From the NCBI RefSeq assembly GCF_029760955.1, contig NZ_CP121682.1:6583501-6647500 (forward strand): DNA of 64,000 nt. The letters are read 5' to 3'. Position numbers and translations under genes: made by a program. Position 1 is the stretch's first letter. Each line of letters starts with the position of its first letter. This DNA comes from Streptomyces cathayae (GTDB taxonomy: Bacteria > Actinomycetota > Actinomycetes > Streptomycetales > Streptomycetaceae). The notes under the pieces were generated by a model. The model had not been told where the DNA came from. It worked only from the letters and a program-made list of their open reading frames with translations, and made no database searches. This document shows positions 32,653 through 63,222 of the stretch, piece by piece.

Positions 32653-34332
32653 TCAGGAGGATTCGGCGACGGCCGCCTCCGCGGGCACGGCGGCCTCGGG
32701 GTGCCGGTCGGCCGTCGCCGGGGCCGTGTCCGCGGAGGGCTCGTCGGCAGGGGCCTTGGACAGGAGGCCGGGTGCCGGCCGGGTGCGCCCGGGCGCCCGG
32801 GCCTTTGGTGCCGCGTCCGCCGTGGTCGTCCTGGCCGGGAGCAGGTCCAGTACCGCCTGCCGGTGGGCATCGCCGGTCGCGTCGTCGTACGGGTTCGGCG
32901 TGGCCGGCACCTGGAGCCGGTGGACCGGGCCCGTGCCCAGACGGGCGTAGCCACGGCCCGGGGGGACGTGTTCGACGGGTGTGGTGTGCGGGGGAGCGCC
33001 CAGGACGGCCGCCACCTGATCCGGTGTCGCGGGCCCGAGGACGACCCGCGCGCGGGTGTGCTGCCGCACCGCGTCGGTGAGGGCCTCCATGCTGTCGAGC
33101 TGATCGGCGACGACCACCGTGACGTTCACCGGGCGGCCGTGCCGTAGCGGGACCTGGAGCAGCGACTGGGGGTCCTCACGGCCGTCCGCGGCGGCCAGGT
33201 GCGTGAACGCGCTCGGGCGGTCCAGCAGAATCCAGAGCGGCCGCCTGGTGTCCGCGGGCGGCGGATCGCCCGCCTGGTGGGCCCGGTTGGTGGCGATCAG
33301 GCGGCGCTCCGTCTCGTGCGCGGCCCACTGAAGACTCGCCAGAGCTCCCGCCAGGCCGCACTCGACGGAGCGCACACCGTCCCGGCCGGTGAGGCACGCG
33401 TACTCACCGGTGCCGCCGCCGTCGATGATCACCACATCGCCGTGGACCAGCGCCTGCAGGGCGACGGAGCGCAGCAGCGTGGAGACACCGCTGCCGGGGT
33501 GCCCGGCCGCCAGCAGGTGGGGCTCGGTGGAGCGGACACCGGTGCGCCAGACGACGGGGGGAACGTCGCGCTGCTCCTCGCCGTGGGTGAGCGGCAGGGT
33601 CCGCCGCACCCAGGTGGGATCGGTGAAACCGAGGACCGTCTCGCCGGGGGACGTGACGAAGCGCTGGGCGGCGATGTCGGCGGGCAGCGGGGCGAGGACG
33701 CGGACCGTGAGCTGGTTGCCCTCCTCGTCCCAGGCGAAGTGGTATTCCCGGCCGCGCCCCGACTTGGCGGCGAGCAGATGCTCGATCCGGGCACGGGACT
33801 CCGGTTCGCCGTCGGTGTAGTACGCGGGATAGCTGATCAGTAGGTGGGTGATGCGACCGGTGCCGTCGAACTCGTACGCGGGGAAGGCGTTCTCCCACGC
33901 GCCGCCGTGGGTGTAGAGGGGATCGGGGTCCCCGGCGGACGAGAAGTACGGCACCAGGGCGTGGTACAGCGACCTCAGGCGTTTGACCTGCGACTCGTCG
34001 GGCCCGCCGGACCCGGCCGGGACGCGGTCCCGGCCCTGCCAGGCCGCCGCCGTCATCAGGGTGATGACGGCGAGCAGCGGACCGTACGGGAGGAGCGCCA
34101 CGACCAGGACCACCGACGCCACCAGGAAGAGCAGCGCCCCGCGCCGCTCCTTGGGGGTGTCGAGCCACCTGCGCCGTCCGGCCGAGGCGAGCCGGCGCAG
34201 TCCGCGCATGATCGTGATGAGCGGATGCAGGACGTCCGTGGCGCTGTCGGCCGCCGTCCGGGCCAGCTCCCGGCTCCGGGCGAGCTGCGCGCCGCCGTTC
34301 CTCAGGATGCGGGGGAGGGGGCGCCGGGCCAC
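32653..34332 (-). CDS. FtsK/EccC-like membrane protein with degenerate Walker A
   Basis: A 559-residue protein. Residues about 40-80 are basic, two hydrophobic stretches follow (LLFLVASVVLVVALLPYGPLLAVITLMTAAAW, about 65-95), then a beta-rich region. The P-loop-like region reads LLAAGHPGSGVSTLLRSVALQAL (about 250-275), with Walker-B-like DVVIIDGGG. The invariant lysine of GxxGxGK(S/T) is Val, so normal ATP binding is doubtful. A Pro/Ala/Thr-rich tail ends the protein. GGAGG precedes the GTG. The layout resembles TraB/SpoIIIE or degenerate EccC ATPase domains. It forms an operon with the 64-residue membrane protein upstream. Confidence 0.7.
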   Translation of the reverse strand: MARRPLPRILRNGGAQLARSRELARTAADSATDVLHPLITIMRGLRRLASAGRRRWLDTPKERRGALLFLVASVVLVVALLPYGPLLAVITLMTAAAWQGRDRVPAGSGGPDESQVKRLRSLYHALVPYFSSAGDPDPLYTHGGAWENAFPAYEFDGTGRITHLLISYPAYYTDGEPESRARIEHLLAAKSGRGREYHFAWDEEGNQLTVRVLAPLPADIAAQRFVTSPGETVLGFTDPTWVRRTLPLTHGEEQRDVPPVVWRTGVRSTEPHLLAAGHPGSGVSTLLRSVALQALVHGDVVIIDGGGTGEYACLTGRDGVRSVECGLAGALASLQWAAHETERRLIATNRAHQAGDPPPADTRRPLWILLDRPSAFTHLAAADGREDPQSLLQVPLRHGRPVNVTVVVADQLDSMEALTDAVRQHTRARVVLGPATPDQVAAVLGAPPHTTPVEHVPPGRGYARLGTGPVHRLQVPATPNPYDDATGDAHRQAVLDLLPARTTTADAAPKARAPGRTRPAPGLLSKAPADEPSADTAPATADRHPEAAVPAEAAVAESS

Positions 34333-34381
34333 TGCTGCCTCCAGTGTGTGCGGGTGGGTGAGGACGTGGGTGAGCGGTGGG

Positions 34382-34576
34382 TCAGAACCTGATTCCGCCG
34401 AGGAGGCCGGCCAGGCTTTCGCCACCCGCCTTGATGCTCGGCGCGATGGCCGTACTCGCCAGATAGAAGCCGAACAGCATGGCCACCACGGCGTGCAACG
34501 GCCTCAGGCCGTCCTTGCGGCAGAAGATGAAGAGGACGATGCCGAGCAGGACCACGCCTGAGATCGAGAGGATCAT
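34382..34576 (-). CDS. Small two-segment membrane protein
   Basis: A 64-residue protein, MILSISGVVLLGIVLFIFCRKDGLRPLHAVVAMLFGFYLASTAIAPS, with two hydrophobic segments and a basic loop. AGGAGAACTCAC precedes the ATG. It sits 49 bases before the FtsK/EccC-like gene on the same strand. Similar tiny membrane proteins accompany TraB-like genes in Streptomyces plasmids, which suggests a partner role, but no conjugation genes are present here. Confidence 0.7.
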   Translation of the reverse strand: MILSISGVVLLGIVLFIFCRKDGLRPLHAVVAMLFGFYLASTAIAPSIKAGGESLAGLLGGIRF

Positions 34577-35674: not shown

Positions 35675-35719
35675 TGCACGTCCCCGGTTGCGTCGACGCT
35701 TGATGTGAGGCTGTTTCCC

Positions 35720-37138
35720 ATGTTCGATCCGGTCATAGCGCCCAGCGGTACGCTGCTCGGCCTGCTTCAGCGTGGCCGCGGCGACGGCACGCTGCACGCG
35801 CTCACCGCCCCGCGCTCCGAAACGCTCGCGGCACTGAACCACTGCGTGCTGCACGATCCGCGCCACGACTGGCAGGTGGAGAACCGCTCCCTCTACTACG
35901 CCCGCCTCTATCTCGATCTGCACGGCGAACTGGACGCGATCGAGGCGCACCTCTTCGAGGCCGAGGACCTCCTCGACACCGAGGAGTCACGCACCGGGCT
36001 CGCCCTCGCGGTCCTCGGGCACCTCGCCTCCTACGGCAGGCGGGACGCGCTCGTCCTGCTGCGCAGGTACGCCGCCCAGGGCTCCAACTGGGCCTGGGCC
36101 CTGGACGAACTCGCCCTCCGGGACGACGACGAGGGCCTGCGCGCCCTCGCCGTCCCGGTGCTCGCGCGGTTCAGCACCGACGCCGAGGGCGAGGCCGAAC
36201 TGGCCGCCACCGTCCGTGACGCCTTCGAGCCGCGGCCCTGGCGCCTGTGGGCCGACGATCCACGCGAGTCCGTCGCCACACGCGTGCGCGGCGCCCAGGA
36301 GGCCGGCTGCTTCGACCGCTGGCAGCGGCAGATGCGCCCCACCGGCCCCCGTCCCGGGTGGAGCGTGCGGGCCGTCTTCGAGTGGGCCCAGCAGGGAGTC
36401 GAACGGGGCGCCGCCCTGCATGTCCCGGCCGCCCGATGCCTGAGCGCCGTGGCGGGTCCGGAGGACCGGCCCGAGATCGTCCGGGCCGCCGAGGACGGCA
36501 CCGAGGGGGCCCGCTGCACGGCCCTGCGCTATCTCGCCGACGGCAACGACCCGGACGCCCTCACCCTGATCGAGGGCGCCGTGGCCACCGGGCCGGCGCC
36601 CGTCGTGGAGACCGCCGTCGACGCGTTCGAACGCATGCGCAGTCTCGCCGCCGTCGACCGCGCGCGCCGCTGGGCCCACCGGCCCGATGCCCTGGGCGCC
36701 GCCGCCGGCCGTGTCCTCGCCCTCCGGGGCGGCGCACAGGACCGGGACCTGGTCCTCGCCGCGCTGCGCGAGGCGGTACGGGGCGAGGGCCCCGACGCGA
36801 CGGCCCTGTGGACCCTCGTCGACGGCGCCGGACGCCTGGGCATCGCCTGTGCCGCTCCCGTGCTCCGCCACATCTACCGGGAGACCGCCTCCTCCCATTT
36901 GCGCGGCCGGGCCGCCCGCGCACTCGCGGCCACCGATCCCTCCTTCGGCAGCGGCTTCGCCGTCGAGTGCCTCTGGGACTGCGAGGAGTCCACTCGCGAG
37001 ATCGCCGCGCGGCACGCCGAGACCGGCGACGCCCGGGTCTTCGAGCGCCTGCGACGGCTCGCCGTCGACCCGGCCGAGGAGGCGGAGGTGCAGACCGCCG
37101 TACGCAGCCGGATCGGGCCCGGGGAGACCGTCGTGTGA
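35720..37138 (+). CDS. HEAT-like repeat protein
   Basis: A 472-residue soluble helical protein. Repeating helix pairs such as DDDEGLRALAVPVLARFSTDAEGEAEL, TEGARCTALRYLADGNDPDALTLIEGAVAT and SHLRGRAARALAATDPSFGSGFAVECL are HEAT-like. The ATG at 35720 follows GTGAGG by 9 bases; an in-frame GTG at 35705 is an alternative. Such proteins are scaffolds, and no enzyme motif is seen. It is a stand-alone gene. Confidence 0.7.
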   Translation: MFDPVIAPSGTLLGLLQRGRGDGTLHALTAPRSETLAALNHCVLHDPRHDWQVENRSLYYARLYLDLHGELDAIEAHLFEAEDLLDTEESRTGLALAVLGHLASYGRRDALVLLRRYAAQGSNWAWALDELALRDDDEGLRALAVPVLARFSTDAEGEAELAATVRDAFEPRPWRLWADDPRESVATRVRGAQEAGCFDRWQRQMRPTGPRPGWSVRAVFEWAQQGVERGAALHVPAARCLSAVAGPEDRPEIVRAAEDGTEGARCTALRYLADGNDPDALTLIEGAVATGPAPVVETAVDAFERMRSLAAVDRARRWAHRPDALGAAAGRVLALRGGAQDRDLVLAALREAVRGEGPDATALWTLVDGAGRLGIACAAPVLRHIYRETASSHLRGRAARALAATDPSFGSGFAVECLWDCEESTREIAARHAETGDARVFERLRRLAVDPAEEAEVQTAVRSRIGPGETVV

Positions 37139-40597: not shown

Positions 40598-40777
40598 GGA
40601 GCCCCTCCGGTGCGGTTCCGGCCGTGGCGCGGCCCGATGCGTACCGCGTCCGGAGCGAACCGGTGGTCAGCGGGCCCCGGCGGTCCCCGTGGGTCCGAAC
40701 CGGTGTGACAACCGTGACACCGGGGCACATCTGCGTCGTTTGGGTTGTTGTCAGACCGAGGACCTAGTCTGTGCACC

Positions 40778-42304
40778 GTGACTTCACCTGCATCGACGGA
40801 CAGTGCTCCGCCCCAGCTCAGCGCGGGCCCGCGGCCCGCGCCGGGCCCGGCGGCCGACGAGGGGCTGGCCCGGCGGCTGCGCGCCCTCGCCTGCACCGCG
40901 CCGCTGCACGACCTGGACGCCCGCAAGGTCAATCTGGCCGGAGAGTACTCGGTGTACGGCATGGCGGAGATCGCCCTGGCGGCCATCGACCTGGTCACGC
41001 TGAACATGGACTTCGACACCGGTGCCGACCATGACCATATAGTCGCCCGGCTCGTCCCGCGCATCGCCGCCCAGGCACCCCGCCGGCCGGTCGCCGAGCA
41101 CGAGCGGGTGGCCCGCTGGGTCCTGGAGAACCTGATCAACGTCGGCAGCGTCGATCGCGGCTTCCGCGCGGTGTACGGAGTGTTCGGCGCGGACGGCAGC
41201 TATGTCCGCCGCGACTACGACTTCAAACTGATCGAGGAGGTCCCCGGCCCCGGCGGCACCGTCTACCTGCGGACCACGGACGAGGCGGTCAACGTCCTGG
41301 TCGGCGCCCTGGACACCGATGTCACCAGCGCCCAGATCGCCGCCGAGGTCAAACTCGAGGTGCTGATCAGCCGGGGCAGGCTCGCCGACGCCCAGCTCGC
41401 CGCCGAGCAGGCCCGCTACCGGACCGTGCAGTACTCCGAATCGCTGCGCCGCGCCCTGGACGCCACCCGGCGCAACGTACGCGCGGTGGACTGGCTGAGC
41501 GCTGTTCCCGACATGATCGCCGAGGCCCTGGACCACGTCGCGGACCGGTACCGCCACGAGAACGCGATCCTCACCAACATCCGCAAGGCCCGTGACGAAT
41601 CGGAGGACCCCGAGCACAAACGCAGGGCCGCCGAGCTGGTGGACATCGTCAAGGACTGCATCCGTCGGCACACCCAGCTGCAGTCCCGGCTGCTGGAGGC
41701 CGGCCCGCTGTTCCGGGCCGAACAGGACCGGCAGGCCTTCGCCACGCCGGCCTCGGCCTCGGGCACCGACCTCTACGGACACCTCCTCTCCCCCCTGCTC
41801 CCGCTGCCCCTGGAGCAGGCGGTCCGGGTCACCGACGCCTTCTTCACCCGCGGCACCGGGCTGCGTACACCGGTGTCCGTCCGGGTCGCCGATCTCGTCG
41901 ACATCCTGCTGACCCCGGCGGTGGAGCGGGAGCACCTGGGCGCCGAGATGCCGGAACCCGACCTGATCGCCACACCCGACGACAGCCGCTTCACCGAGAA
42001 GCAGCTGGCGGCCGCGACCACCCTGCTGGAACTGCCGGCCGACGCGCCCCGACGGCTGTCCGGACTGCTCGCCGAGGCTCGCGGCCAGGACCCCGAACTT
42101 CCGTACCTGGTGGCCCTGCTGGCGGTCCACGCGGCCAGCCCGCCGGTCGGCACCGCCTACCGTCAGGGCGAGCGGCGCCTGCTCTTCGCGGTGGACGACG
42201 GTGTGGAACTGGACGACCCCGAGTTCGGCGGCGCCGATCTCATCGTCGGTACGGCCCTGCTGGACGCGGCGGGAATGGCGGCGGACCGGACGGAGGCGGC
42301 CTGA
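40778..42304 (+). CDS. Kleisin-like (JetA/MksF/MukF-type) subunit of an SMC-like complex
   Basis: A 508-residue soluble protein without membrane segments. The N-terminal part (about 60-170) looks like winged helix and helices (ARWVLENLINVGSVDRGFRAVYGVFGADGSYVRRDYDFKLIEE). The block LRTTDEAVNVLVGALDTDVTSAQIAAEVKLEVLISRGRLADAQLAAEQARYRTVQYSESL resembles JetA proteins of Wadjet systems in layout. Long helices and a charged C-terminal domain follow. The identification rests on this and on its place before a KITE-like and an SMC-like gene. TAGTCT lies 7 bases before the GTG with no ribosome site, suggesting a leaderless transcript. It would bridge the SMC heads. Confidence 0.7.
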   Translation: MTSPASTDSAPPQLSAGPRPAPGPAADEGLARRLRALACTAPLHDLDARKVNLAGEYSVYGMAEIALAAIDLVTLNMDFDTGADHDHIVARLVPRIAAQAPRRPVAEHERVARWVLENLINVGSVDRGFRAVYGVFGADGSYVRRDYDFKLIEEVPGPGGTVYLRTTDEAVNVLVGALDTDVTSAQIAAEVKLEVLISRGRLADAQLAAEQARYRTVQYSESLRRALDATRRNVRAVDWLSAVPDMIAEALDHVADRYRHENAILTNIRKARDESEDPEHKRRAAELVDIVKDCIRRHTQLQSRLLEAGPLFRAEQDRQAFATPASASGTDLYGHLLSPLLPLPLEQAVRVTDAFFTRGTGLRTPVSVRVADLVDILLTPAVEREHLGAEMPEPDLIATPDDSRFTEKQLAAATTLLELPADAPRRLSGLLAEARGQDPELPYLVALLAVHAASPPVGTAYRQGERRLLFAVDDGVELDDPEFGGADLIVGTALLDAAGMAADRTEAA

Positions 42305-42423
42305 TGAGCGCTCCGCCGGACCGCGGGGAGCCGGCGGTGGCCGCAGGCCCCGGGCCGGCCGCCGGTACCGTCGCCGCCCCCGTCACCGTCGTTCGCCAGC
42401 GCGAGGAGGAACCGTGTCCGTGA
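42304..42423 (+). CDS. Possible 39-residue bridging ORF
   Basis: An ATG overlapping the kleisin-like stop (TGATG) opens a 39-codon frame that ends inside the next gene, 10 bases past its GTG start. The peptide is Ala/Pro/Gly-rich and ends in a charged segment, VVRQREEEPCP. It fills an otherwise 109-base gap. It could couple translation of the two subunits, or be chance. Confidence 0.3.
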   Translation: MSAPPDRGEPAVAAGPGPAAGTVAAPVTVVRQREEEPCP

Positions 42424-43301
42424 ACGAGCATGCCGAGTGGAGCGAGGCGGAGCCCTCCACCGCACCGGCCGTTGCCACCGTCACACCCGCCGACGCCGCC
42501 GACGCGGCGCGGCTCGTCGCCTTCGGCCTCCAGCCCAAGCTGCAGCCGGCCCGCGACCAGGAGTACGCGGACCTGCTGCGCCGCTACCGTGAGGACCCGC
42601 CGTTCGCGCGCCTCGCCGACGCCGTGGCCACCGGCCTCGGCCTGATCGTGCTCGAGGTGTCCCCGCGCGCGGGGATGGCCGTGACCGCCGCCGAGGACTC
42701 GGTGTTCGCCGTCCGCATGGGCGACTACGCGCGGCGGACCTCCGCCGACGGTGGCGACCGGTTCCTGCACGGGCTCGCCCACCTCGCCGTCGCCGTCATG
42801 GCCTTCCCGCGTCCCGAGGACCTCGCCGACGACGCCTACATCGGGCGGGTGACCGTCAACGGCGTCGACGCCTTCGTACGCCAGGCCTGCCACCGTCTGG
42901 AGGAGAGGGCCGCGGAACAGGGCGAGAACACCGACCCGGCCAGCGACGCCCCGGGGCTGGAGACGGCCTGGCGGATCTGGGCGAGACGCAGCGCGACCGG
43001 CGCGACCAAGGACGCACGCCGGCTCGCGGGTTCGACCACCGGCATCGTCGCCAAGGCCGTCACCTTCCTCACCGACTCCGGATTCCTGCAGCGCACCGGC
43101 GACGACCACGGCGGCACCTACCGCACGACGGCCCGCTACCAGCTCCAGGTGCGAGAGCTGGCGGGCGGTGCGGCCATGGCCGAACTGCTGGAACTGGGCA
43201 TCGTCCCGGTCACCGACGGCACCCCGACCCTGCTGCCCGCGGACAGCGGTGAGGACCTGGAACTGGTGGCCGGCGCCGGTCTGCCGTTCCATTCCGCCTG
43301 A
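42414..43301 (+). CDS. KITE-like (JetB/MksE/MukE-type) subunit
   Basis: A 295-residue soluble protein. The N-terminal half is helical (ADAARLVAFGLQPKLQPARDQEYADLLRRYREDPPFARLADAVA). The C-terminal winged-helix part reads STTGIVAKAVTFLTDSGFLQRTGDDHGGTYRTTARYQLQVRELAGGAAMAELLELG. The 'YRxTxRYQLQVRELA' pattern is what JetB/MksE subunits show at the same place. GAGGAGGA precedes the GTG. KITE proteins bind the kleisin and DNA. It is the second gene of the complex, 134 bases before the SMC-like gene. Confidence 0.68.
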   Translation: MSVNEHAEWSEAEPSTAPAVATVTPADAADAARLVAFGLQPKLQPARDQEYADLLRRYREDPPFARLADAVATGLGLIVLEVSPRAGMAVTAAEDSVFAVRMGDYARRTSADGGDRFLHGLAHLAVAVMAFPRPEDLADDAYIGRVTVNGVDAFVRQACHRLEERAAEQGENTDPASDAPGLETAWRIWARRSATGATKDARRLAGSTTGIVAKAVTFLTDSGFLQRTGDDHGGTYRTTARYQLQVRELAGGAAMAELLELGIVPVTDGTPTLLPADSGEDLELVAGAGLPFHSA

Positions 43302-43435
43302 ACCGGCCCCCGCCGCACGTCCTCGCCTCCGTCCCCGCCCCCGCCCCCGCTCCCCTTCCCGTCCCCGCCTCCGTTCACATTCCCCATTCCTGTCTCCGAA
43401 CCACCCCGACCTGCCGAAGACTTCGAGAGTCCGCC

Positions 43436-46400
43436 ATGTACGAGCTGTCCCGGGTCCGCCTCTACTCCATCGGGCCCGCCGGCGCGCGTTACGCCGACAC
43501 CGTGCTCGACCTGCGCGGTGTCGGCGCGACCGTGCCCGAACCCGCGCCGACGCAGGCGGAGTTCTTCGCGGAGGAGCCGGTGGGCCCGCCCCGCCGGCCC
43601 GCGCCCGCCGGGGTGCTCTTCCTGGAGAACGGCGGCGGCAAGTCCGTCCTGCTGAAGCTGATCTTCTCCGTGATGCTCCCGGGCCACCGCAACACCCTCG
43701 GCGGCGCGAGTTCCGGCGTGCTGCGCAAGTTCCTGCTGGCCGACGACTGCGGACACGTGGCGCTGGAGTGGCAGCACGTGCTGACCGGCGAGTGCGTCGT
43801 CGTCGGCAAGGCCAGTGAATGGCGTGGCCGCCAGGTCTCCAACGACCCGAGGAAGTTCGCCGAGGCCTGGTACTCGCTGCGGCCCGGCCCGGGACTCGGC
43901 CTGGACAACCTCCCCGTCGCCGAGGCCACCGCCGTACGGCCGCCCGCCGACGGCCAGTCCGGCGCGAGGGGCCGCCGCCGCACCATGAAGGGCTTCCGGG
44001 ACGCCCTCACCGAGGCAGGCCGGACGTATCCGCACCTGGAGGTGCACTGGGAGGAGACCCACGAGCGCTGGACCGAGCACCTCGGCGACCTGGGACTCGA
44101 CCCCGAACTCTTCCGCTACCAGCGGGAGATGAACGCCGACGAGGGCGAGGCAGCCGGCCTCTTCGCGGTCAAGAAGGACTCGGACTTCACCGATCTGCTG
44201 CTGCGTGCCGTCACGGACACCCGGGACACCGACGGACTCGCCGACCTGGTCGGTGGCTTCGGCAACAAGCTGGGCCGACGCGCCGAGCTGATCGCCGAAC
44301 GGGACTTCACCGCCGGGTCGGTCGAACTGCTCGGCAGGATCGTCGAAGCCGCCGGCGCCCGTACCCGGTCGCGGGAGATCCACACCGCGGCCGAGCGCCG
44401 CACCCGCACCCTGGCCCGCAGGCTCTCCGCGCGCGGCAACCAGGAACGCGTCCGCGCCGCCGACCTCGCGCAGCGCGTCACCGCCGCCGCCCACGCCGTC
44501 ACCCAGGCCGGAACGGCACGCGAACACAGCGCACTGATCTCGGCGGAGATCGCCTACCGGCACGCCTCCCTGGCGCTCACCGCGGCCGAGAAGTCCGCCG
44601 CCGCCCAGAAACGGGAACTCGCCGACGCGCGCACCCTGTACTCGGCGTGGCAGGCCGCCGAGGCGGCGCTGCGCCACCGCGCCGCCGCCGACCGGGCGGC
44701 CAGGGTCTCGGCCGCGATCCAGGAGGCCGAGCGGGACGCGGCACCCGCGCTGGCCGCCCGCGCCAAGGCCGCCGTCGACCTCGTACGCGCCCTGCACACC
44801 GCCGCGCAGAACGCCGAGAACCTCGCCAACGAGCAGGAGGAGCGGTCCGCCGCCCTCCAGGAGGTCAGCGACGCCGCCCATCGCGACGCCACCGCCGCCG
44901 CCACCGGGGCACAGCGGGCCCGCAGCGAGATCGGTCACCTCAGACAGCGCCTCACCGAGGTCGAGCAGGAGACCGCCGAGGCCGTCCGGGCCGGCTGGCT
45001 CGACGACAGTGCCCCCGACGCCGACCCGGCCCGCGCCGCCCTCGCGGCCGGCGACGCGGAGAAGACCGCGGTCGCCGCCTGGGACTCGGCCCGCGAGGCG
45101 GCCCGCCGGGCGACCGAGCACGCGCGCGAGGCCGCCGCCACCCAGGCGCGCGCGGAACTCACCGCCGCCCGCGCGGCGGACGCGGCCACGGCGGCCGACC
45201 GCGCCCACGAGAGCGAACTGCGCACCGCACAGGCCCTGGCCGCCGAGGAACGGCCGGCCGAGCTGCTGGGCCTGACCGCCACCGACGCCCGCTCCTCGGT
45301 CCCGTGGCCCCGCCCCGACACGGACGCCGAACCAGGCGGCCGCCCCGCCGAAGGCGCCCTCACCGCCACCGAACTGGACCGCTTCGCCGACGACCTGTGC
45401 GAACTGCTCGACGACGCGGTCTCCTCCGCCGAACGCCAGTTGTTCGAGCTGCGCACCGCCGCCGCCGACGACGCCCGCATCCTCGGCGCCCTCGGAGACG
45501 GCGGACTGCTGCCGCCCGGCCCGGACGTGCTGGCCACGGTCGAGTACCTCGGTGAGCACGGCATCCCCGCCCTGCCCGGCTGGCGCTATCTCGCCCAGGC
45601 CGTGGACCCCGCCGACCACGCACGCGTGCTGGCCGCCCGTCCCGAACTGGTCGACGGTGTCGTCATCACCGACCCGGACTCCCACACCCGCGCCCGCGCG
45701 GCCCTGAGCGACGCGGCCCTGCTGCCCCGGTCCACCGTCGCCGTCGGCACGGCCGCCGCCCTGCTCGCGCCGGCCCCGGCGCAGGACGCGGACACCGGGG
45801 ACGTCTTCCTCGTACCGCCGAACCCGGCCATGCACGACGAACACGCCGCCGACGAGGAGCGGCAGGCGCTGCGCGTCCGGGCGGCCGCGCGGGACGAAGA
45901 GATCCGTGCGCTGGCGGCGCGGCTCGCCAAGGACCGGGAGCTGGCCGCGCGGCTCACCTCCTGGCGTACCGGCTGCCCGCCCGGCCGGCTCGACGAACTG
46001 GCCCGCGCGGCGCACGATGCCCGCGCCTTCGCGGCGGAGTGCGAGGCGGAACTCGCCGAGGCACGCGCTCTGCGGGCGGAGGCCGAGGAGGCCGCAGCCG
46101 AGGCCGCCCGGGTGCGTGACGAGCGACAGGAGACCGCGCAGAAGGCCCGGCGCGCCGCAGACGCCCTCGCGGGACTCGCCTTCCGGCTGCGCGAGCGGGG
46201 CGGCTGGCAGACCACACTGCGGGAGCTGGCCGACGACGCCGCCGAGGCGGAGGCCGGCGCCCAGGCCTGCCTGGAGCGCGCGCGGGCCGCCGACGAGGAC
46301 CGGCGCGGCGCGCAGCGGGCCGCCGACGACGCCCGGCGCACCGCGCGGGCGCTGCGCGCCGAGCGCGCCGAGATCGCCGGCGCCCCCGACGACGTGCCGG

Positions 46401-48070
46401 AGGACGGCACCGAGGCGCCGCAGATCTCCCTGCCCGCCCTGCGCGAGGCGTACCGGGCCGCCTCCCAGCTCTACGAGAAGGTCGGCGTCGGCGCCGACCT
46501 GCGCGCCGAGCAGGCCCGCGCCGAGAGCGACGAGAGCGCGGCACGCGCGGAGCTGGACCGGCTGAGCAACAAGGTCCGCACCCGTGCGGAGCAGTTGCTC
46601 CAGTCGCCCGAGGGTTCGGACGGTCCCAGTCGCCAGGCCGCCGCGGCCCGCGCCGAGGAGCTGGTGCAGCTCCTGGAGACCCGCATGTCGAGTGCGAGCG
46701 AGCAACTCGGACGGCTGCGCGGCGAGGCGGAGCGGCTCGCGCCCGAGGACGGCGAGGAACACACCGGGCTCCCCGAGGAGTCGGTGCCCCGTGACGCCGA
46801 GCACGCACAGGCGCTGCTGCGGACCGCCACGGCCGAACTGGCCTCCCGGACGGAGGAACTGGGCCGGACCGGGCAGGCCCACGGAGAACTCCTCGACGCG
46901 CACCGCGCCGCGGAGGACGCCGCCGGGGGGTTCGACGAGATCGCCGCCATGCTCCGCGACCTGCTGCGTGATCAGGCGTCCGAGGAGGAACCGGAGGGGC
47001 CCGAGCCCTACCCGGGCAGCTTGGCGGAGGCCCGCAGCTCCGCCGCGGAAGCCCGCCGGTCACTGCGGGGCTGCGCCGCCGATCTGTCCGCCACCGAGTC
47101 CGCGGTGCGCGAGGCGAGCGACATCCTCGTCCGGCACGCCAACTCCACCCGCTACGAGCAGGTCCGCACCCCCGCACGGCAGCAGATCCGCGAACTGCCC
47201 GCTTCCGCACTGCCCGAGCACGCCCACAAGTGGGCGGACGCCTTCGCGCCCCGGCTCAGGGTCCTCACCGACGAGCTCGAACAACTGGAACGCAACCGGG
47301 ACTCGATCGTGGACCGGCTCAGAGGACTCGTCGAGTCGGCGCTCGCCACCCTGCGCTCCGCGCAGCGGCTGTCCCGGCTGCCCGAAGGGCTCGGCGAGTG
47401 GTCCGGACAGGAGTTCCTGCGCATCCGCTTCGAGGAACCCGACCAGGCGACCCTCACCGAACGGCTCGGTGAGGTCATCGACGAGGCGACCCGCGCGGCC
47501 GTGCGCAAGAACTCCGATCTGCGGCGCGACGGCATGTCCCTGCTGCTGCGCGGAGTCGCAGCCGCCCTCCGGCCCAAGGGCGTCGCCGTCGAGATCCTCA
47601 AGCCGGACGCCGTGCTGCGCGCCGAGCGGGTCCCCGTCGGGCAGATGGGCGATGTGTTCTCCGGAGGGCAGCTGCTCACCGCGGCCATCGCCCTGTACTG
47701 CACGATGGCCGCGCTGCGCTCCAACGACCGGGGCCGGGAGCGGCACCGGCACGCCGGCACGCTGTTCCTCGACAACCCCATCGGCCGCGCCAACGCCACC
47801 TACCTGCTGGAGCTCCAGCGGGCCGTCGCCGACGCGCTCGGTGTGCAGCTCCTCTACACCACCGGCCTGTTCGACACCACGGCACTGGCGGAGTTCCCGC
47901 TGGTCATCCGCCTGCGCAACGACGCCGACCTGAGGGCGGGCCTGAAGTACATCAGTGTCGAGGAGCACTTGCGGCCGGGCCTGCCCCAGGAAGCCACGGA
48001 CGGGGAAGCCGTGCACAGCGAGATCACGGCCACCCGGATGTTCAAACGGCCCACCCCGGCGAACGGCTGA
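43436..48070 (+). CDS. SMC-like ATPase (JetC/MksB/MukB-type)
   Basis: A 1,544-residue SMC-type protein. The N-terminal head has a P-loop at about 64-70 (LENGGGKSVLLKLIF). Two long coiled-coil arms rich in Ala, Glu and Arg follow (about 290-690 and 790-1330), flanking a non-coiled hinge-like centre (about 640-780, LEHGIPALPGWRYL type sequence). The C-terminal head has the ABC signature FSGGQLLTAAIAL (about 1408-1420) and Walker B TLFLDNPIGRANATYLLELQ. The residue after the Walker B Asp (1446) is Asn, where ABC/SMC ATPases have catalytic Glu. With the two preceding genes this is a MukBEF/JetABC-like loop extruder candidate. No JetD nuclease gene is adjacent. Confidence 0.85.
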   Translation: MYELSRVRLYSIGPAGARYADTVLDLRGVGATVPEPAPTQAEFFAEEPVGPPRRPAPAGVLFLENGGGKSVLLKLIFSVMLPGHRNTLGGASSGVLRKFLLADDCGHVALEWQHVLTGECVVVGKASEWRGRQVSNDPRKFAEAWYSLRPGPGLGLDNLPVAEATAVRPPADGQSGARGRRRTMKGFRDALTEAGRTYPHLEVHWEETHERWTEHLGDLGLDPELFRYQREMNADEGEAAGLFAVKKDSDFTDLLLRAVTDTRDTDGLADLVGGFGNKLGRRAELIAERDFTAGSVELLGRIVEAAGARTRSREIHTAAERRTRTLARRLSARGNQERVRAADLAQRVTAAAHAVTQAGTAREHSALISAEIAYRHASLALTAAEKSAAAQKRELADARTLYSAWQAAEAALRHRAAADRAARVSAAIQEAERDAAPALAARAKAAVDLVRALHTAAQNAENLANEQEERSAALQEVSDAAHRDATAAATGAQRARSEIGHLRQRLTEVEQETAEAVRAGWLDDSAPDADPARAALAAGDAEKTAVAAWDSAREAARRATEHAREAAATQARAELTAARAADAATAADRAHESELRTAQALAAEERPAELLGLTATDARSSVPWPRPDTDAEPGGRPAEGALTATELDRFADDLCELLDDAVSSAERQLFELRTAAADDARILGALGDGGLLPPGPDVLATVEYLGEHGIPALPGWRYLAQAVDPADHARVLAARPELVDGVVITDPDSHTRARAALSDAALLPRSTVAVGTAAALLAPAPAQDADTGDVFLVPPNPAMHDEHAADEERQALRVRAAARDEEIRALAARLAKDRELAARLTSWRTGCPPGRLDELARAAHDARAFAAECEAELAEARALRAEAEEAAAEAARVRDERQETAQKARRAADALAGLAFRLRERGGWQTTLRELADDAAEAEAGAQACLERARAADEDRRGAQRAADDARRTARALRAERAEIAGAPDDVPEDGTEAPQISLPALREAYRAASQLYEKVGVGADLRAEQARAESDESAARAELDRLSNKVRTRAEQLLQSPEGSDGPSRQAAAARAEELVQLLETRMSSASEQLGRLRGEAERLAPEDGEEHTGLPEESVPRDAEHAQALLRTATAELASRTEELGRTGQAHGELLDAHRAAEDAAGGFDEIAAMLRDLLRDQASEEEPEGPEPYPGSLAEARSSAAEARRSLRGCAADLSATESAVREASDILVRHANSTRYEQVRTPARQQIRELPASALPEHAHKWADAFAPRLRVLTDELEQLERNRDSIVDRLRGLVESALATLRSAQRLSRLPEGLGEWSGQEFLRIRFEEPDQATLTERLGEVIDEATRAAVRKNSDLRRDGMSLLLRGVAAALRPKGVAVEILKPDAVLRAERVPVGQMGDVFSGGQLLTAAIALYCTMAALRSNDRGRERHRHAGTLFLDNPIGRANATYLLELQRAVADALGVQLLYTTGLFDTTALAEFPLVIRLRNDADLRAGLKYISVEEHLRPGLPQEATDGEAVHSEITATRMFKRPTPANG

Positions 48071-48115: not shown

Positions 48116-48706
48116 TCAGGAGTGGGACAGCCGACCGGTCCCGCCCCGGCGGCGTATTCGTGCCTGCGCACGCTGGGCGGACCTCTCCCTGCGACGGGCC
48201 CGGCGCCGCTCGCGGCGCCGGGCCCGCGCGGTGCTGCTGGGTGAGGACACCACGCCGTTGCGCTGGTTCCAGACCTGGCGCGTCACCCACACGTCGAGGA
48301 CCCCCCAGGTCGCCAGGATCGTGCTGACGACGCTGCTGATGACCATGGGGAAGGCCAGCCAGGACCCGGCCAGCGTGCACAGAAGGGCCACCATGGCCTG
48401 AATCAGTGTCAGCGCGACGATGAGCACGGCCCGTACGGCCGCCGTGCGCACCGGATCCGGCAGGCGGCGCCGCCGCGCGGGTTCCTCGACCCACAGCGGC
48501 CGGTAGTACGGCCGTGGGCGCGCGTCTGCCTCCGAGCGGACGTCCGCACCGGGTGCGCGGGCCGGTTCCCCGGGGCCGGCGCCGACCACCGCGGTCCCGG
48601 GCTCCGCCGCGGGGGCGCCGCGGTTCGGCACCTCGGTGTCCGGCCGCTTCGTCATCTGCGCCACCGCGGCGCCCTCGGGCGCCTCGTACCGCTCCGCCGT
48701 GCCCAT
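48116..48706 (-). CDS. Membrane protein with arginine-rich tail
   Basis: A 196-residue protein. A hydrophilic Pro/Ala-rich N-terminus is followed by YYRPLWVEEPARRRRLPDPVRTAAVRAV. Two hydrophobic segments come next (LIVALTLIQAMVALLCTLAG and WLAFPMVISSVVSTILATWGV). The C-terminal 40 residues contain long runs of Arg (RARRRERRRARRRERS). The ATG follows GGGGAG. I do not recognise the family. It is convergent with the SMC-like gene and divergent from the conservon. The basic tail might bind nucleic acid or acidic lipid. Confidence 0.65.
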   Translation of the reverse strand: MGTAERYEAPEGAAVAQMTKRPDTEVPNRGAPAAEPGTAVVGAGPGEPARAPGADVRSEADARPRPYYRPLWVEEPARRRRLPDPVRTAAVRAVLIVALTLIQAMVALLCTLAGSWLAFPMVISSVVSTILATWGVLDVWVTRQVWNQRNGVVSSPSSTARARRRERRRARRRERSAQRAQARIRRRGGTGRLSHS

Positions 48707-49123
48707 CAACGTGTCAACTCCCCACCGCCGGCAGTCCGCCCGCTCGCGTCCGAAGACCCGGCTCCCCAACGACTGCCCGGCTTGCACTGATTTACGCCGC
48801 CCGGATGCGAGGCGCGGCTCCTGCGGCCGATTCCGCCCCCATCTCCCACAGAGAAGGACGAACGGCACGTCGCAAAGATTCCCGGACAAGGAAAGAAATC
48901 GGCCAACTGTACCCATCAGGGTCCGCAGGCCGGCACCCGGCCTCCCCTCGATCCGGGATGGAATCTCCCGTAATGCAGGGACAACTCGCCATGTCCCGCC
49001 GTCGGTACGGAAGTTCGGATTCCGGAGAACTCTTCGAGTCGGCCGCGGCTCGGTAGTAGGCTCGCGCCGTTTGTTGACACACATGTGTGCCCTCGGTCAC
49101 CCGAGGGCGAGCTGGGGGAGGCC
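48707..49123. other. Divergent control region upstream of the conservon
   Basis: This 417-base gap holds the start region of the arginine-tailed protein and the conservon promoter. Features near the right end are TTCGAG-N18-TAGGCT (49033-49062), a 12-base palindrome and an 8-bp hairpin. The middle part, 48780-49000, is less GC-rich than its surroundings and has no convincing frame. Confidence 0.5.
49033..49108 (+). promoter_or_regulatory. Putative cvnA promoter with palindrome and hairpin
   Basis: TTCGAG (49033-49038), 18 bases and TAGGCT (49057-49062) form a possible promoter. Downstream are the perfect palindrome CACACATGTGTG (49078-49089) and the hairpin GCCCTCGG-TCAC-CCGAGGGC (49089-49108), which ends 15 bases before the cvnA ATG. 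The last two could be an operator and a translational control element. Confidence 0.35.
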
Positions 49124-51826
49124 ATGCGCTTTCGCGGGAAGTCCGTCCGCCGGAAGATCGTGGCGCTGCTTCTCGTGCCGCTGGTGTCCCTGACCGCGAT
49201 CTGGGGCTTCGCCACGGTATTCACGGGACGGTCGGTCACTCAGCTGTTCCGGGTCTCCGCCGCGGTCGAGGACATCGGCCACCCGATCGAGAAAACCGTC
49301 CGCGTCCTCCAGCAGGAACGCCGCCAGACCCTCGTCCACCTCGCCGATCCGCGGGCCTCGGACACGCTCTCCGCGCTCCGCGCCACCCGCACGGCCACCG
49401 ACGGCGCCATCGCCGAGGTCCGCAAGAACGCGGGCACCCCCGACGTCCGCGACGGGCTGAGTACGGGCGGCGAGGACCGGATCACCGCTGTCCTGGACGC
49501 GTTCGACGGCATCGACTCCCTGCGCGGCAGCGTCGAGCAGGGCACGATGAACCGCGCCGAGGCCCTCCACCAGTACAACCTTCTCGTGGACTCCTGCTAC
49601 GCCCTCCTGACCTCCCTCGACGGCATCGACAACGTGGAGGTGGACGAGCAGGGCCGCGCCCTGCTCAACCTCAGCCGCGCCCGTGAACTCCTCGCCCGCG
49701 AGGACGCCCTGCTCGGCTCGGCCCTCGTCGTCGGCACACTGTCCCGCACAGAGGTACGCGACGTCTCCGACCTCGTGGCCCAGCGCACGCTGCTGTACGA
49801 CATCGCTCTGCCGCAGTTGCCGGCCGCGGACCGGGGCCGCTACGAGAGCTTCTGGAGGAACGCGGCGTCCGCTCCGCTGCGCGTCGCCGAGGAGGCGGCC
49901 GTCTCCTCCGGCACCGGACCGCCTCGCGGAGTCACCGCGAAGAGCTGGGACACCGCCGCCGGCCATGTGCTCGAAGAACTCGGTACCCTCGACGACCAGG
50001 CCACCGACCGCTATCAGGACCGCGTCCAGCCGGTCGCCATGAGCGTCATCACCTGGGCCGTCCTCGTCGGCGTCCTCGGACTGGTCGCCGTCCTCGTCTC
50101 CCTCGTCCTGTCCGTGCGCATCGGCCGCGGCCTCATCCGTGATCTGCGGCAGTTACGTCTCGAGGCGCATGAGGCCTCCGGCGTGCGACTGCCCAGTGTG
50201 ATGCGCCGTCTCTCGGCGGGCGAACAGGTCGACATCGAGACCGAGATCCCCCGCCTGGAGTACGACAGGAACGAGATGGGCGAGGTCGGCCAGGCCCTCA
50301 ACACCCTGCAGCGCGCGGCCGTGGAGGCGGCCGTCAAACAGGCCGAACTGCGCTCCGGGGTCTCGGAGGTGTTCGTCAACCTCGCCCGCCGAAGCCAGGT
50401 TCTGCTGCACAAACAGCTCACCCTGCTGGACAGCATGGAGCGCCGGACCGAGGACACCGAGGAACTCGCCGACCTGTTCCGTCTGGACCATCTGACCACC
50501 CGCATGCGCCGGCACGCCGAGGGGCTGGTCATCCTCTCCGGGGCCGCGCCCTCCCGGCAGTGGCGCAAACCGGTCCAGCTCATGGACGTCGTGCGCGCCG
50601 CCGTCGCCGAGGTCGAGGACTACGAGCGCATCGAGGTCCGCAGACTGCCGCGGGTCGCCGTCACCGGCCCCGCCGTCGCCGACCTCACCCACCTGGTGGC
50701 CGAACTCCTGGAGAACGCCACGGTGTTCTCCCCACCGCACACCGCCGTCCAGGTCCTGGGCGAGCGTGTGGCCAACGGCTTCACCCTGGAGATCCACGAC
50801 CGCGGTCTCGGCATGGCGGCCGAAGCGCTGCTGGATGCCAACCTGCGGCTCGCCGAGACCCCGGAGTTCGAACTCTCCGACACCGACCGGCTCGGACTGT
50901 TCGTGGTCAGCCGTCTCGCGCAGCGGCAGAACGTCCGGGTCTCCCTGCAGCCCTCCCCCTACGGCGGCACCACCGCGGTCGTCTTCATCCCGGACGCACT
51001 CCTGACGGACGACGTCCCGGACACCAACGGAGCCGGCTTCCGCCTCGACCGGCCCCGGCGCGCCAAGGAGAGGGAACCAGGGGAGAACCGTCGTCCCGCG
51101 CTGTCCCAGGTGCCCGTACAACGGCCCGGAGTGTCCGCCTCGCTGCTGGACGGACCGATCGAACTCGAGGGCCCCGTCGACCTGGACGCCCTCGACGACT
51201 ACCCGGGGGCCCCGGCGGACGAGGACGGCGAACACAGCGGCCTGTTCCGCCCCCGGCGCTCCTCGGGCCGCACCGAGGACGAGCGGCCGGGCCCTCGGCG
51301 TGAGCTGCATCAGCGGGCTCCCGAGAACCGCGACGGACCGGACAGGGGCAGGGACAGGGACGGGCAGGCGAACGGCCCCGCTCCGCTGCCCCGCAGGGGA
51401 GTCCCCAAGCTGGTCAGTTCCCACGGCCGCCCGGTCGACGACGAGCACGTCCGCCGGGAGCGGACGGACCACGACACCGGCACCCCCTCTGCCCACCCGG
51501 GGCAGGAGCCCGCACCGCCGCCCCTGCCCGCCCGCCGACGGAGCACGGAGTCCCGCCCCGGCAGCACCCCACAGGAGGCAGGCGACCGGCCCGACCTTGG
51601 ATCGCTGCCCCGACGGGTACGGCAGGCCAGCCTCGTCCCACAGCTCAGACGAAGCACGCGACCACGGAACGAGGAAAGATCCCAGCCCGTCGAACGGGAC
51701 GCGGAGGAAGTGCGCAGCCGCATGGCCTCGCTCCAGCGCGGCTGGCAGCGCGGCCGCGACGAGAACGCCGAGGCCGACGACGGCCCCGGCGGGACAGCAC
51801 CACGAGGAACGACCAAGAACGACTGA
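49124..51826 (+). CDS. cvnA: Conservon histidine-kinase-like receptor
   Basis: A 900-residue membrane sensor. TM1 (about 11-32, KIVALLLVPLVSLTAIWGFATVF) precedes an extracytoplasmic nitrate/nitrite-sensing-like helical domain (about 33-305). TM2 (about 307-333) and a HAMP-like segment follow. The ATPase domain shows VAELLENATVFSPPHTAVQV (about 518-537), IHDRGLGM and GLFVVSRLAQRQ. The C-terminal 230 residues are disordered, rich in Arg, Pro and Asp. GGGGGAGG precedes the ATG. CvnA proteins signal through CvnB/C/D, not a response regulator. Codon 344 is TTA (50153-50155), implying bldA-dependent translation. First gene of the conservon. Confidence 0.92.
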   Translation: MRFRGKSVRRKIVALLLVPLVSLTAIWGFATVFTGRSVTQLFRVSAAVEDIGHPIEKTVRVLQQERRQTLVHLADPRASDTLSALRATRTATDGAIAEVRKNAGTPDVRDGLSTGGEDRITAVLDAFDGIDSLRGSVEQGTMNRAEALHQYNLLVDSCYALLTSLDGIDNVEVDEQGRALLNLSRARELLAREDALLGSALVVGTLSRTEVRDVSDLVAQRTLLYDIALPQLPAADRGRYESFWRNAASAPLRVAEEAAVSSGTGPPRGVTAKSWDTAAGHVLEELGTLDDQATDRYQDRVQPVAMSVITWAVLVGVLGLVAVLVSLVLSVRIGRGLIRDLRQLRLEAHEASGVRLPSVMRRLSAGEQVDIETEIPRLEYDRNEMGEVGQALNTLQRAAVEAAVKQAELRSGVSEVFVNLARRSQVLLHKQLTLLDSMERRTEDTEELADLFRLDHLTTRMRRHAEGLVILSGAAPSRQWRKPVQLMDVVRAAVAEVEDYERIEVRRLPRVAVTGPAVADLTHLVAELLENATVFSPPHTAVQVLGERVANGFTLEIHDRGLGMAAEALLDANLRLAETPEFELSDTDRLGLFVVSRLAQRQNVRVSLQPSPYGGTTAVVFIPDALLTDDVPDTNGAGFRLDRPRRAKEREPGENRRPALSQVPVQRPGVSASLLDGPIELEGPVDLDALDDYPGAPADEDGEHSGLFRPRRSSGRTEDERPGPRRELHQRAPENRDGPDRGRDRDGQANGPAPLPRRGVPKLVSSHGRPVDDEHVRRERTDHDTGTPSAHPGQEPAPPPLPARRRSTESRPGSTPQEAGDRPDLGSLPRRVRQASLVPQLRRSTRPRNEERSQPVERDAEEVRSRMASLQRGWQRGRDENAEADDGPGGTAPRGTTKND

Positions 51827-51838
51827 GGGGGACGGTCG

Positions 51839-52273
51839 ATGACCGCACCGAACACGACCGGCCACGCCGAAGGCGGCAAGGGGGAGCTGAACTGGCTCCT
51901 CGACGACCTGGTGGACCGCGTCGCGAGCATACGGAAGGCCGTCGTGCTCTCCGGCGACGGCCTCGCCACGGGGGCGTCCGGGGGACTGACCCGCGAGGAC
52001 AGCGAGCACCTCGCCGCCGTGGCCTCCGGGTTCCACAGCCTCGCCAAGGGGGTGGGCCGCCACTTCGAGGCAGGCGGTGTCCGACAGACCGTCGTCGAAC
52101 TCGACGAGGCCTTCCTGTTCGTCACGGCCGCCGGAGACGGCAGCTGTCTCGCCGTCCTCGCCGACGCCGACTCGGACGTCGGACAGGTCGCCTACGAGAT
52201 GACCCTTCTGGTGAAGCGGGTCGGCCCGCATCTGGACGCCGAACCACGCACCGATCTGCCTCCGGGTGGGTAG
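51839..52273 (+). CDS. cvnB: Conservon roadblock/LC7 protein
   Basis: A 144-residue roadblock-fold protein: LNWLLDDLVDRVASIRKAVVLSGDGLATGAS, then TVVELDEAFLFVTAAGDGSCLAVLADADSDVGQVAYEM. In conservons CvnB binds the sensor and the GTPase, in a role like that of a GTPase-activating or adaptor protein. GAGGGGGACGGTCG precedes the ATG, 12 bases after the cvnA stop. Confidence 0.93.
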   Translation: MTAPNTTGHAEGGKGELNWLLDDLVDRVASIRKAVVLSGDGLATGASGGLTREDSEHLAAVASGFHSLAKGVGRHFEAGGVRQTVVELDEAFLFVTAAGDGSCLAVLADADSDVGQVAYEMTLLVKRVGPHLDAEPRTDLPPGG

Positions 52274-52282
52274 TGGGATGGC

Positions 52283-52678
52283 ATGAGTGCTGACGGCGAG
52301 GGAAGAAGCCACTGGTTCGACGAGGAGGCCGGACCGGTCGTCCGTCCGTATGCCATGACGCGGGGCCGCACCTCGAGTGCGGCCCAGCACCGCCTCGACC
52401 TGATCGCGGTGGTCGTCGCCGAACCCGAAGCGGACGATCCCGAAGCGGACCCCACCCTCTCCCCGGAACACGTGGACATCGTCGGGCTGTGCCGTGACAC
52501 GCCGCAGACCGTCGCCGAACTCGCCGCGGAACTCGACCTGCCCGTCGGAGTGGTACGCGTCCTCGTCGGAGATCTCGTCGACCTCGAATCCGTCCACGTG
52601 AACCGGCCGGTTCCCCCCGCCGAACTGCCGGACGAGAGTATTCTGCGCGATGTGATCAACGGCCTCCGAGCGCTGTGA
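52283..52678 (+). CDS. cvnC: Conservon DUF742 protein
   Basis: A 131-residue DUF742 protein with the winged-helix core CRDTPQTVAELAAELDLPVGVVRVLVGDLVDLESVHV. The N-terminal WFDEEAGPVVRPYAMTRGRT is the family signature. It starts 9 bases after cvnB. An acidic insert (EPEADDPEADP) sits in the middle. Its role in conservon signalling is as a soluble adaptor. Confidence 0.93.
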   Translation: MSADGEGRSHWFDEEAGPVVRPYAMTRGRTSSAAQHRLDLIAVVVAEPEADDPEADPTLSPEHVDIVGLCRDTPQTVAELAAELDLPVGVVRVLVGDLVDLESVHVNRPVPPAELPDESILRDVINGLRAL

Positions 52679-62242: not shown

Positions 62243-62331
62243 CCCGTCGCCACCCACCGTCACCGCCGTACGCCGCTGTCAGTGCTCCCGGTTACTGTGA
62301 GTGAGTACTGATCGACTGTGCAGGGGGAGAC

Positions 62332-63222
62332 ATGACGTACACCGACCACCGAACCGTCCGACGTGTCCTGCGCCGGGAAATCGCGGGCACCATCGGGGTG
62401 CTGACGGACGAGCACGACTTCCGTGCCATGCGGCACTACCGAAGCTTCGTCTTCGACGACCACGCCGTGTACCTCGAACAGATGGAGGCCGTCCTCAGGA
62501 CACGTGCCCTGCAGGGCGACCACACGACACTGGCCCTCTTCGACCCCGAGGAGTACGCGGCATTCTGCGCGCGCTCGGGCCTCGACCCCGACCGCCGCAC
62601 CAGCCGCACCCGCTTCACCGCCGAACTCGCGGCCACCGGACCCACCGTCCCCTACGAGGGACAGCCGTTGGCCGACCTCCTGCCCGCCCTCGTCGACGAG
62701 GCGGTCCGCCGGGCGACCTGGGAGTACGCGACCACCCTCCTCGCCCGCCTCGGCGCCTGCGCCTCGTGTGGTGAGGACCTGGGCCGCGAGGCCTTCGCCC
62801 GCGCCTCCCAGCTGATCGTCCGCATCCTCGACACCGCGGGACCCGGCAACCGGCACCTCGTCTGCAGTGTCTCCGGACCGCCCCAGACCTTGGTCGCCGT
62901 CCTGCACGCCGACGACAACGACGGACATATGGAGCTGGACGACGCCGAGCTCCTCGAATTCACCACGGTGCTGGCAGTCGGCCTCGCCACCGGCAGCCCG
63001 GGCGGACTCGTCATGCGGACCACCGCACCAGGCACCGCCGACCGCATCCACGGCTGGCGGCTGCGCGCCCACGGCCTCGAACCCCTCACCGCGGGAGAGG
63101 TCTTCGACGCCTACTGCACCGACGTGGAATCCGGAGACCTCATCTCACCCGAGTCCAACGTCGACTACTGCGAGCCGCCCGACCTCGCGGACGGGAGCCC
63201 GGGCCCGACCCACCGCCACTGA
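62332..63222 (+). CDS. Soluble protein of unknown function
   Basis: A 296-residue protein beginning MTYTDHRTVRRVLRREIAGTIGVLTDEHDFRAMRHYRSFVFDDH. It is acidic, lacks signal or membrane segments and contains a CASC pair (about 144-147) that might bind metal. AGGGGGAG precedes the ATG. I do not recognise the family. It is the last gene before a terminator shared with ptsI. Confidence 0.7.
   Translation: MTYTDHRTVRRVLRREIAGTIGVLTDEHDFRAMRHYRSFVFDDHAVYLEQMEAVLRTRALQGDHTTLALFDPEEYAAFCARSGLDPDRRTSRTRFTAELAATGPTVPYEGQPLADLLPALVDEAVRRATWEYATTLLARLGACASCGEDLGREAFARASQLIVRILDTAGPGNRHLVCSVSGPPQTLVAVLHADDNDGHMELDDAELLEFTTVLAVGLATGSPGGLVMRTTAPGTADRIHGWRLRAHGLEPLTAGEVFDAYCTDVESGDLISPESNVDYCEPPDLADGSPGPTHRH

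Follow-up and report, generated by a model that had tools for sequence, protein, structure and literature searches.

The 64,000-nucleotide stretch of Streptomyces cathayae DNA analysed here (the window) carries at 40778..48070 three genes, jetA, jetB and jetC, for a MukBEF-like structural maintenance of chromosomes (SMC) complex. We read this set as the motor of a type III Wadjet system that has lost the nuclease JetD and has been retained across the Streptomycetaceae as a core SMC complex inducible by DNA damage, and we give this reading as a whole a probability of about 0.5. That a nuclease-free, Wadjet-derived complex has become fixed in the family is very likely. Damage inducibility of jetABC, predicted from the promoter sequence, is probable. 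The first-pass annotation, made from the letters of the window, had described genes for kleisin-like, KITE-like and SMC-like proteins at this place, and this observation was confirmed.

All PADLOC matches of jetABC were to type III Wadjet. JetA matched the JetA3 model PDLC00567 (E 4.1e-186), and JetC matched the JetC3 models PDLC00588 (E 0) and PDLC00589 (E 1.4e-238). The core JetB had no match among the PADLOC JetB3 models, which, together with the absence of JetD, may explain the silence of defence surveys on this complex. The best Foldseek matches of the AlphaFold model of JetA were MukF, assigned by chain length, and the predicted fold of JetB resembles JetB and MukE, as for the KITE subunit of type III Wadjet. 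The kleisin and KITE folds proposed for the first two proteins were therefore recovered in the predicted structures, more clearly for JetB than for JetA. With a kleisin (JetA), a KITE protein (JetB) and an SMC ATPase (JetC), the set has the motor parts of a type III Wadjet system; with the nuclease absent, it also has the composition of an MksBEF-type complex. The Walker A motif NGGGKS was present in all 27 readable JetC rows, as ENGGGKS in 26 and as QNGGGKS in one JetD-bearing copy (L124), a further row (L163) being truncated, and the signature FSGGQ was present in 28 of 28. The Walker B-like LFLDNP was read in JetC of the window and in the Rhodococcus protein described below.

JetD was found neither beside jetABC, where the first-pass annotation had also seen none, nor elsewhere in the S. 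cathayae genome. The JetD_C domain (PF09983) gave no match above cut-off in this genome, and profile A1, built from five JetD proteins, gave none either. The gene 3' of jetC (48116-49084) lies on the opposite strand and has no Pfam match. Because JetD was found neither in the operon nor in the genome, jetABC is not filed as a Wadjet system.

Complete sets were found in other replicons. A plasmid of Rhodococcus pseudokoreensis carries JetA, JetB, JetC and an annotated JetD in a row, with JetA and JetB 52% identical to the window proteins, and one Streptomyces plasmid has the identical gene order. The downstream genes of the Rhodococcus and Streptomyces plasmids matched PADLOC JetD3 (E 5e-94 and 5e-61, respectively). 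Of 150 Streptomycetaceae genomes, all at least 95% complete, 13 had a match to the JetD profile, a weak one in G127, and 136 had core JetA and no JetD match. An extra JetA match occurred in 10 of the 13 genomes with JetD versus 2 of the 137 without (Fisher p 1.6e-11), and one of these two (G141) may represent a single split gene. In the four JetD genomes read in place (G100, G110, G157 and G208), JetD follows the extra jetC.

The same pattern was seen locus by locus. Among 160 loci scanned, in which some assemblies appear twice, JetD was located 3' of jetC in 11, all of them plasmid, accessory or Frankiaceae copies. It was absent from the remaining 149, which include truncated or broken loci; 138 of these have both jetA and jetC, and in 119 of the 138 the sequence continues for 1.5 kb or more beyond jetC. 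Of the 11 copies with JetD, five had been used in building the profile and six had not, and the profile detects JetD even beside copies whose JetA is 26-37% identical to the core protein. These results indicate that the core locus is nuclease-free and that JetD belongs to separate copies. The first-pass annotation had tied its claim to relatives having no JetD beside the operon; JetD does adjoin diverged accessory and plasmid copies, and it adjoins none of the core loci read. The claim of a nuclease-free complex is thus refined rather than refuted.

The first-pass annotation had known of no such complex described as core in Streptomyces. Core status was borne out there and extends across the family: in a set of 61 genomes, all 37 from Streptomyces, S. 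cathayae included, had JetA, as did 149 of the 150 Streptomycetaceae genomes, covering 16 of 16 genera. The best JetA copies in the other genomes of the family were 74-94% identical, and a few of them were partial. Ratios of nonsynonymous to synonymous substitutions (dN/dS, Nei-Gojobori), calculated between the window and eight relatives (8 pairs), were 0.08-0.15 for JetA, 0.10-0.20 for JetB and 0.14-0.27 for JetC. Neighbouring genes served as controls and gave 0.34-0.35 (histidine kinase), 0.45-0.47 in three of four pairs and 1.37 in the fourth (membrane protein), 0.19-0.21 (LC7 gene) and 0.15-0.20 (35705-37138). By this comparison, JetA ranks with the most tightly constrained genes of the region and JetC is not unusual. 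Core jetABC is under purifying selection with its ATPase motifs intact and is not decaying.

Outside the family the set is sparse. In 15 genomes from other families of the order, two distant JetA matches were found (33% and 45%; L056 and L057), with surroundings that are cut off or unclear. A sample of 295 genomes from across the class gave JetA matches in 47, comprising 33 Streptomyces and 14 Frankiaceae, and JetD matches in 8, two of them weak. Within the Frankiaceae, jetA was present in 18 of 29 genomes, and among the copies read JetD accompanied only L152 and the distant L158. In the JetA trees, the Streptomycetaceae core clade had support of 100/97 and the Frankiaceae clade without JetD 100/100. 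JetD may have been lost once or twice (approximately unbiased test, p 0.33 and 0.176).

When the DNA 5' of jetA from 52 family loci was aligned, a single conserved block ending at the start codon was obtained. This most conserved upstream block holds a damage-type promoter, with a CGTTT stretch immediately 5' of it, and we take this promoter to follow the RecA-NDp consensus TTGTCRGTG-N8-TAnnnT. In the window the sequence is TGTCAG-ACCGAGGACC-TAGTCT, 7 nucleotides (nt) 5' of the jetA GTG, a spacing that suits a promoter. The sequence agrees with the longer form at 10 of 12 positions and is exact for the TGTCAG form of the PafBC motif of Mycobacterium tuberculosis, TGTCGG or TGTCAG (or TGTCAC)-N10-TA-N3-T (PMC8151990; papers are cited here for the passages available of them). 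A leaderless jetABC transcript is predicted from this spacing. In the window, TGTCRG-N10-TANNNT has 2 matches versus 0.16 expected.

Across 51 family loci, the long form was matched at 9 or more of the 12 positions in 49, at 10 or more in 37 and at all 12 in 13. Matches at 10 or more positions occurred in about 0.4% of Markov sequences and in 28 of 6480 other 300-bp segments of the same loci. The exact short form followed by an in-frame start 5-9 nt on was found in 43 of the 51 family loci, with at least one such locus in 9 of 11 genus codes, and in 63 of 70 named loci, counts that are not independent because the loci are related; in Markov sequences its frequency was zero to four decimals.

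The second exact TGTCRG-N10-TANNNT site of the window (62277-62298, plus strand) lies 33 nt 5' of an open reading frame (ORF) at 62332-63222, which has no Pfam match and could possibly be a further damage-regulated gene.

The whole S. cathayae genome contains 19 exact copies of the long form, and its reversed form has none. The short form at exactly 7 nt from an RTG start was found at 19 sites, jetA included, versus 0 for the reversed control. Ten of the other 18 leaderless sites precede repair or replication genes, named by NCBIfam as xth, recA, radA, ogt and uvrB and, in a second set, UvrD/AddA-like helicase, dnaX, uvrC, RarA-like ATPase and recQ, for several of which the match is a cut-off N-terminal part scoring under the model's curated cut-off. 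Of the remaining eight, two precede tiny ORFs, one a 59-aa ORF and two the genes of unnamed proteins; the other three lie before genes for TnpB, for a CrtD-like protein and for a protein with a weak phosphatase match. The jetA gene therefore belongs to a list rich in repair genes. A UV-inducible macrodomain gene with a RecA-NDp promoter is described in S. coelicolor (PMC5087735), PafB and PafC of that species are listed (PMC6789036), and mycobacterial PafBC is activated by single-stranded DNA (PMC11804915).

Several observations weigh against a core, damage-inducible complex. One genome in 670 contigs (G133) lacks jetA and the jetC end. In the Streptomyces genome G012 (loci L045 and L107), jetA is truncated near its end and jetB and jetC lie at two other, distant places, by rearrangement or misassembly. 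The jetA match of G028 contains an internal stop, and those of G098 and G109 show one TGA each. The window copy of the promoter deviates from TTGTCRGTG in its last two bases, the exact short motif is missed in 8 of 51 family loci, and the Frankiaceae copies without JetD are mostly without the promoter (present in 1 of 14 and 1 of 8). The exact promoter with a start is also found in 2 of 11 JetD-bearing copies (L002 and L127), and in a third (L125) the long motif is matched at 12 of 12 positions without the start spacing. Damage control is therefore not specific to the nuclease-free form and would also fit defence. In the literature, the M. smegmatis PafBC motif was reported not to be conserved in S. 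venezuelae as far as an initial search showed, a statement with which the motif counts in the S. cathayae genome disagree, and a LexA-independent response in Streptomyces was said in 2022 to remain to be shown (both PMC9380542).

The two JetD-bearing copies suggest that some intact Wadjet systems may be damage-inducible. L127 is a JetD-bearing Wadjet III operon in a Streptomycetaceae genome, with the damage-type promoter present. At L002 (Rhodococcus plasmid, 5300-5420), the promoter spacing would put the start codon 5' of the annotated start.

If jetABC is damage-inducible, a role in genome maintenance is somewhat favoured, since under damage control the likeliest target of JetABC would be the cell's own broken or stalled chromosome. 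We infer that PafBC uses the promoter, that the complex extrudes or tethers DNA and that damaged chromosomes are its targets. Single-stranded DNA at damage would activate PafBC, the RecA-NDp-type promoter would fire to give leaderless jetABC mRNA, and the JetA-JetB-JetC complex would load onto the cell's own DNA. It would then hold or extrude loops around breaks or stalled forks and, without JetD, compact or tether the DNA, leaving it uncut. In type I relatives, JetABC confers shape and size sensing and JetD cuts (PMC10586767). More tentatively, and with odds somewhat below even, the Streptomycetaceae may have turned a plasmid-cutting type III Wadjet into a damage-inducible SMC complex for repair, an analogue of Smc5/6 in function and of immune origin that is near-universal in the family and annotated as hypothetical proteins.

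The strongest competitor, itself rather unlikely, is defence without an own cutter: JetABC would recognise small circular or incoming DNA and silence it by compaction or hand it to another nuclease, and damage control would ready the complex once phage or foreign DNA increases the amount of single-stranded DNA. The closest complete relatives read are JetABCD sets, the promoter common to two JetD-bearing copies keeps the defence reading open, and a trans nuclease without similarity to JetD would escape the JetD searches; an effector in trans, also raised by the first-pass annotation, may exist. However, the core set is near-universal, forms one clade and evolves slowly, versus accessory JetD in 13 of 150 of the same genomes, and the Pfam-scanned neighbours in the window include no nuclease domain, no systematic nuclease search having been made near the loci of relatives. 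Less likely still is that jetABC is a second condensin with a housekeeping role in segregation or spore compaction, comparable to Pseudomonas MksBEF, with the promoter motif as a minor input. Such a chromosome-organising role, which the first-pass annotation had considered, would agree with the core distribution of jetABC and with P. aeruginosa MksBEF, which likely came from JetD loss and contributes to chromosome organisation (PMC10586767). Against it stands the placing of the damage-type promoter within the most conserved upstream block, just behind the CGTTT stretch; such a promoter before the operon points to action during damage rather than to a housekeeping condensin.

It is improbable that JetD is present and too diverged for detection, or is supplied by accessory copies. 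The searches used sequence only and the first look scored limited candidates per genome, but the profile finds JetD beside 11 JetABC copies, including those with JetA of 26-37% identity, and beside none of the core copies read, and most genomes (136 of 150) pair core JetA with no JetD match. A functionless Wadjet remnant, decaying after JetD loss, is hardly credible: the set is broken, interrupted or missing in G012, G028 and G133 and possibly in G098, G109 and G141, but its presence in 149 of 150 genomes, the intact ATPase motifs and the dN/dS of 0.08-0.27 contradict decay, as does purifying selection across genera.

Features of the jetABC locus in the window
Feature	Position	Strand	Description
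jetA	40778..42304	+	kleisin (MukF-like), 508 aa, GTG start
jetB	42414..43301	+	KITE / MukE-like double winged helix, 295 aa, GTG start, GAGGAGG upstream
jetC	43436..48070	+	SMC-like ATPase, 1,544 aa; Walker A ENGGGKS, signature FSGGQ, Walker B-like LFLDNP
RecA-NDp / PafBC-type promoter, predicted	40749..40770	+	TGTCAG-N10-TAGTCT, 7 nt 5' of jetA start codon

Beside jetABC, the genes at 48116-52678 encode an unnamed protein (minus strand), a NIT-domain histidine kinase, a Roadblock/LC7 protein and a DUF742 protein. This set presumably resembles a conservon (cvnABC), with an oxoprolinase following instead of the GTPase cvnD. Of 35 Streptomyces core loci read, 24 have a match to this kinase close to jetABC, and some of the others end early. 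About 6 kb from jetABC, a minus-strand pair (32653-34576) encodes a 590-aa protein with a P-loop-like stretch, GHPGSGVSTL, and a 64-aa hydrophobic protein; Pfam gave no match, and the pair is reminiscent of the sporulation pair sffA/smeA. The tRNA-Arg (cct) reported by ARAGORN at 46343-46437 on the minus strand lies within the jetC coding region and is in all likelihood spurious.

Streptomyces serves as a model genus for how chromosomes fold in linear genomes, and a second near-universal SMC complex would change the reading of smc knockouts and Hi-C. It would be a further case of a defence motor kept by its host without the nuclease, and JetD-bearing paralogues in some of the same genomes allow direct comparison. 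Damage control would make the role of jetABC testable in a genus for which a PafBC-type response was in 2022 still regarded as unproven (PMC9380542). Most Wadjet work concerns type I (PMC10586767); Wadjet occurs in 42% of Actinobacteria and in Streptomyces lies mostly towards chromosome ends (PMC10482375). In the literature on Wadjet, MksB or condensin with Streptomyces or DNA damage, no title or abstract opening among those listed describes the complex (subscription papers and preprints are outside this set), and the passages available of three papers on Streptomyces SMC (PMC13121528, PMC12511625 and PMC8410768) name no second SMC complex.

Among known systems, type III Wadjet is similar in the model matches of JetA and JetC, the A-B-C order of JetABCD sets and the agreeing folds; in contrast, the window set is without JetD, is core rather than accessory and has a JetB outside the PADLOC models. 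The MksBEFG of Corynebacterium and EptABCD of mycobacteria are likewise actinobacterial MukBEF-like complexes, but they include the nuclease MksG/JetD and target plasmids (PMC10123090, PMC10586767). The jetA promoter resembles the RecA-NDp / PafBC regulon in sequence and in leaderless spacing, as before recA, uvrB, uvrC and radA, whereas the literature passages available name no SMC complex of the jetABC kind as a member. The MksBEF of P. aeruginosa is likewise made of kleisin, KITE and SMC ATPase subunits and lacks MksG/JetD. It differs in that the window set is type III by PADLOC, belongs to another phylum, has a damage-type promoter and, judging by the Streptomyces SMC papers, coexists with SMC. 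Since P. aeruginosa MksBEF likely arose from JetABCD through JetD loss (PMC10586767), the principle is already known; new here is the damage-type promoter 7 nt 5' of a core jetA.

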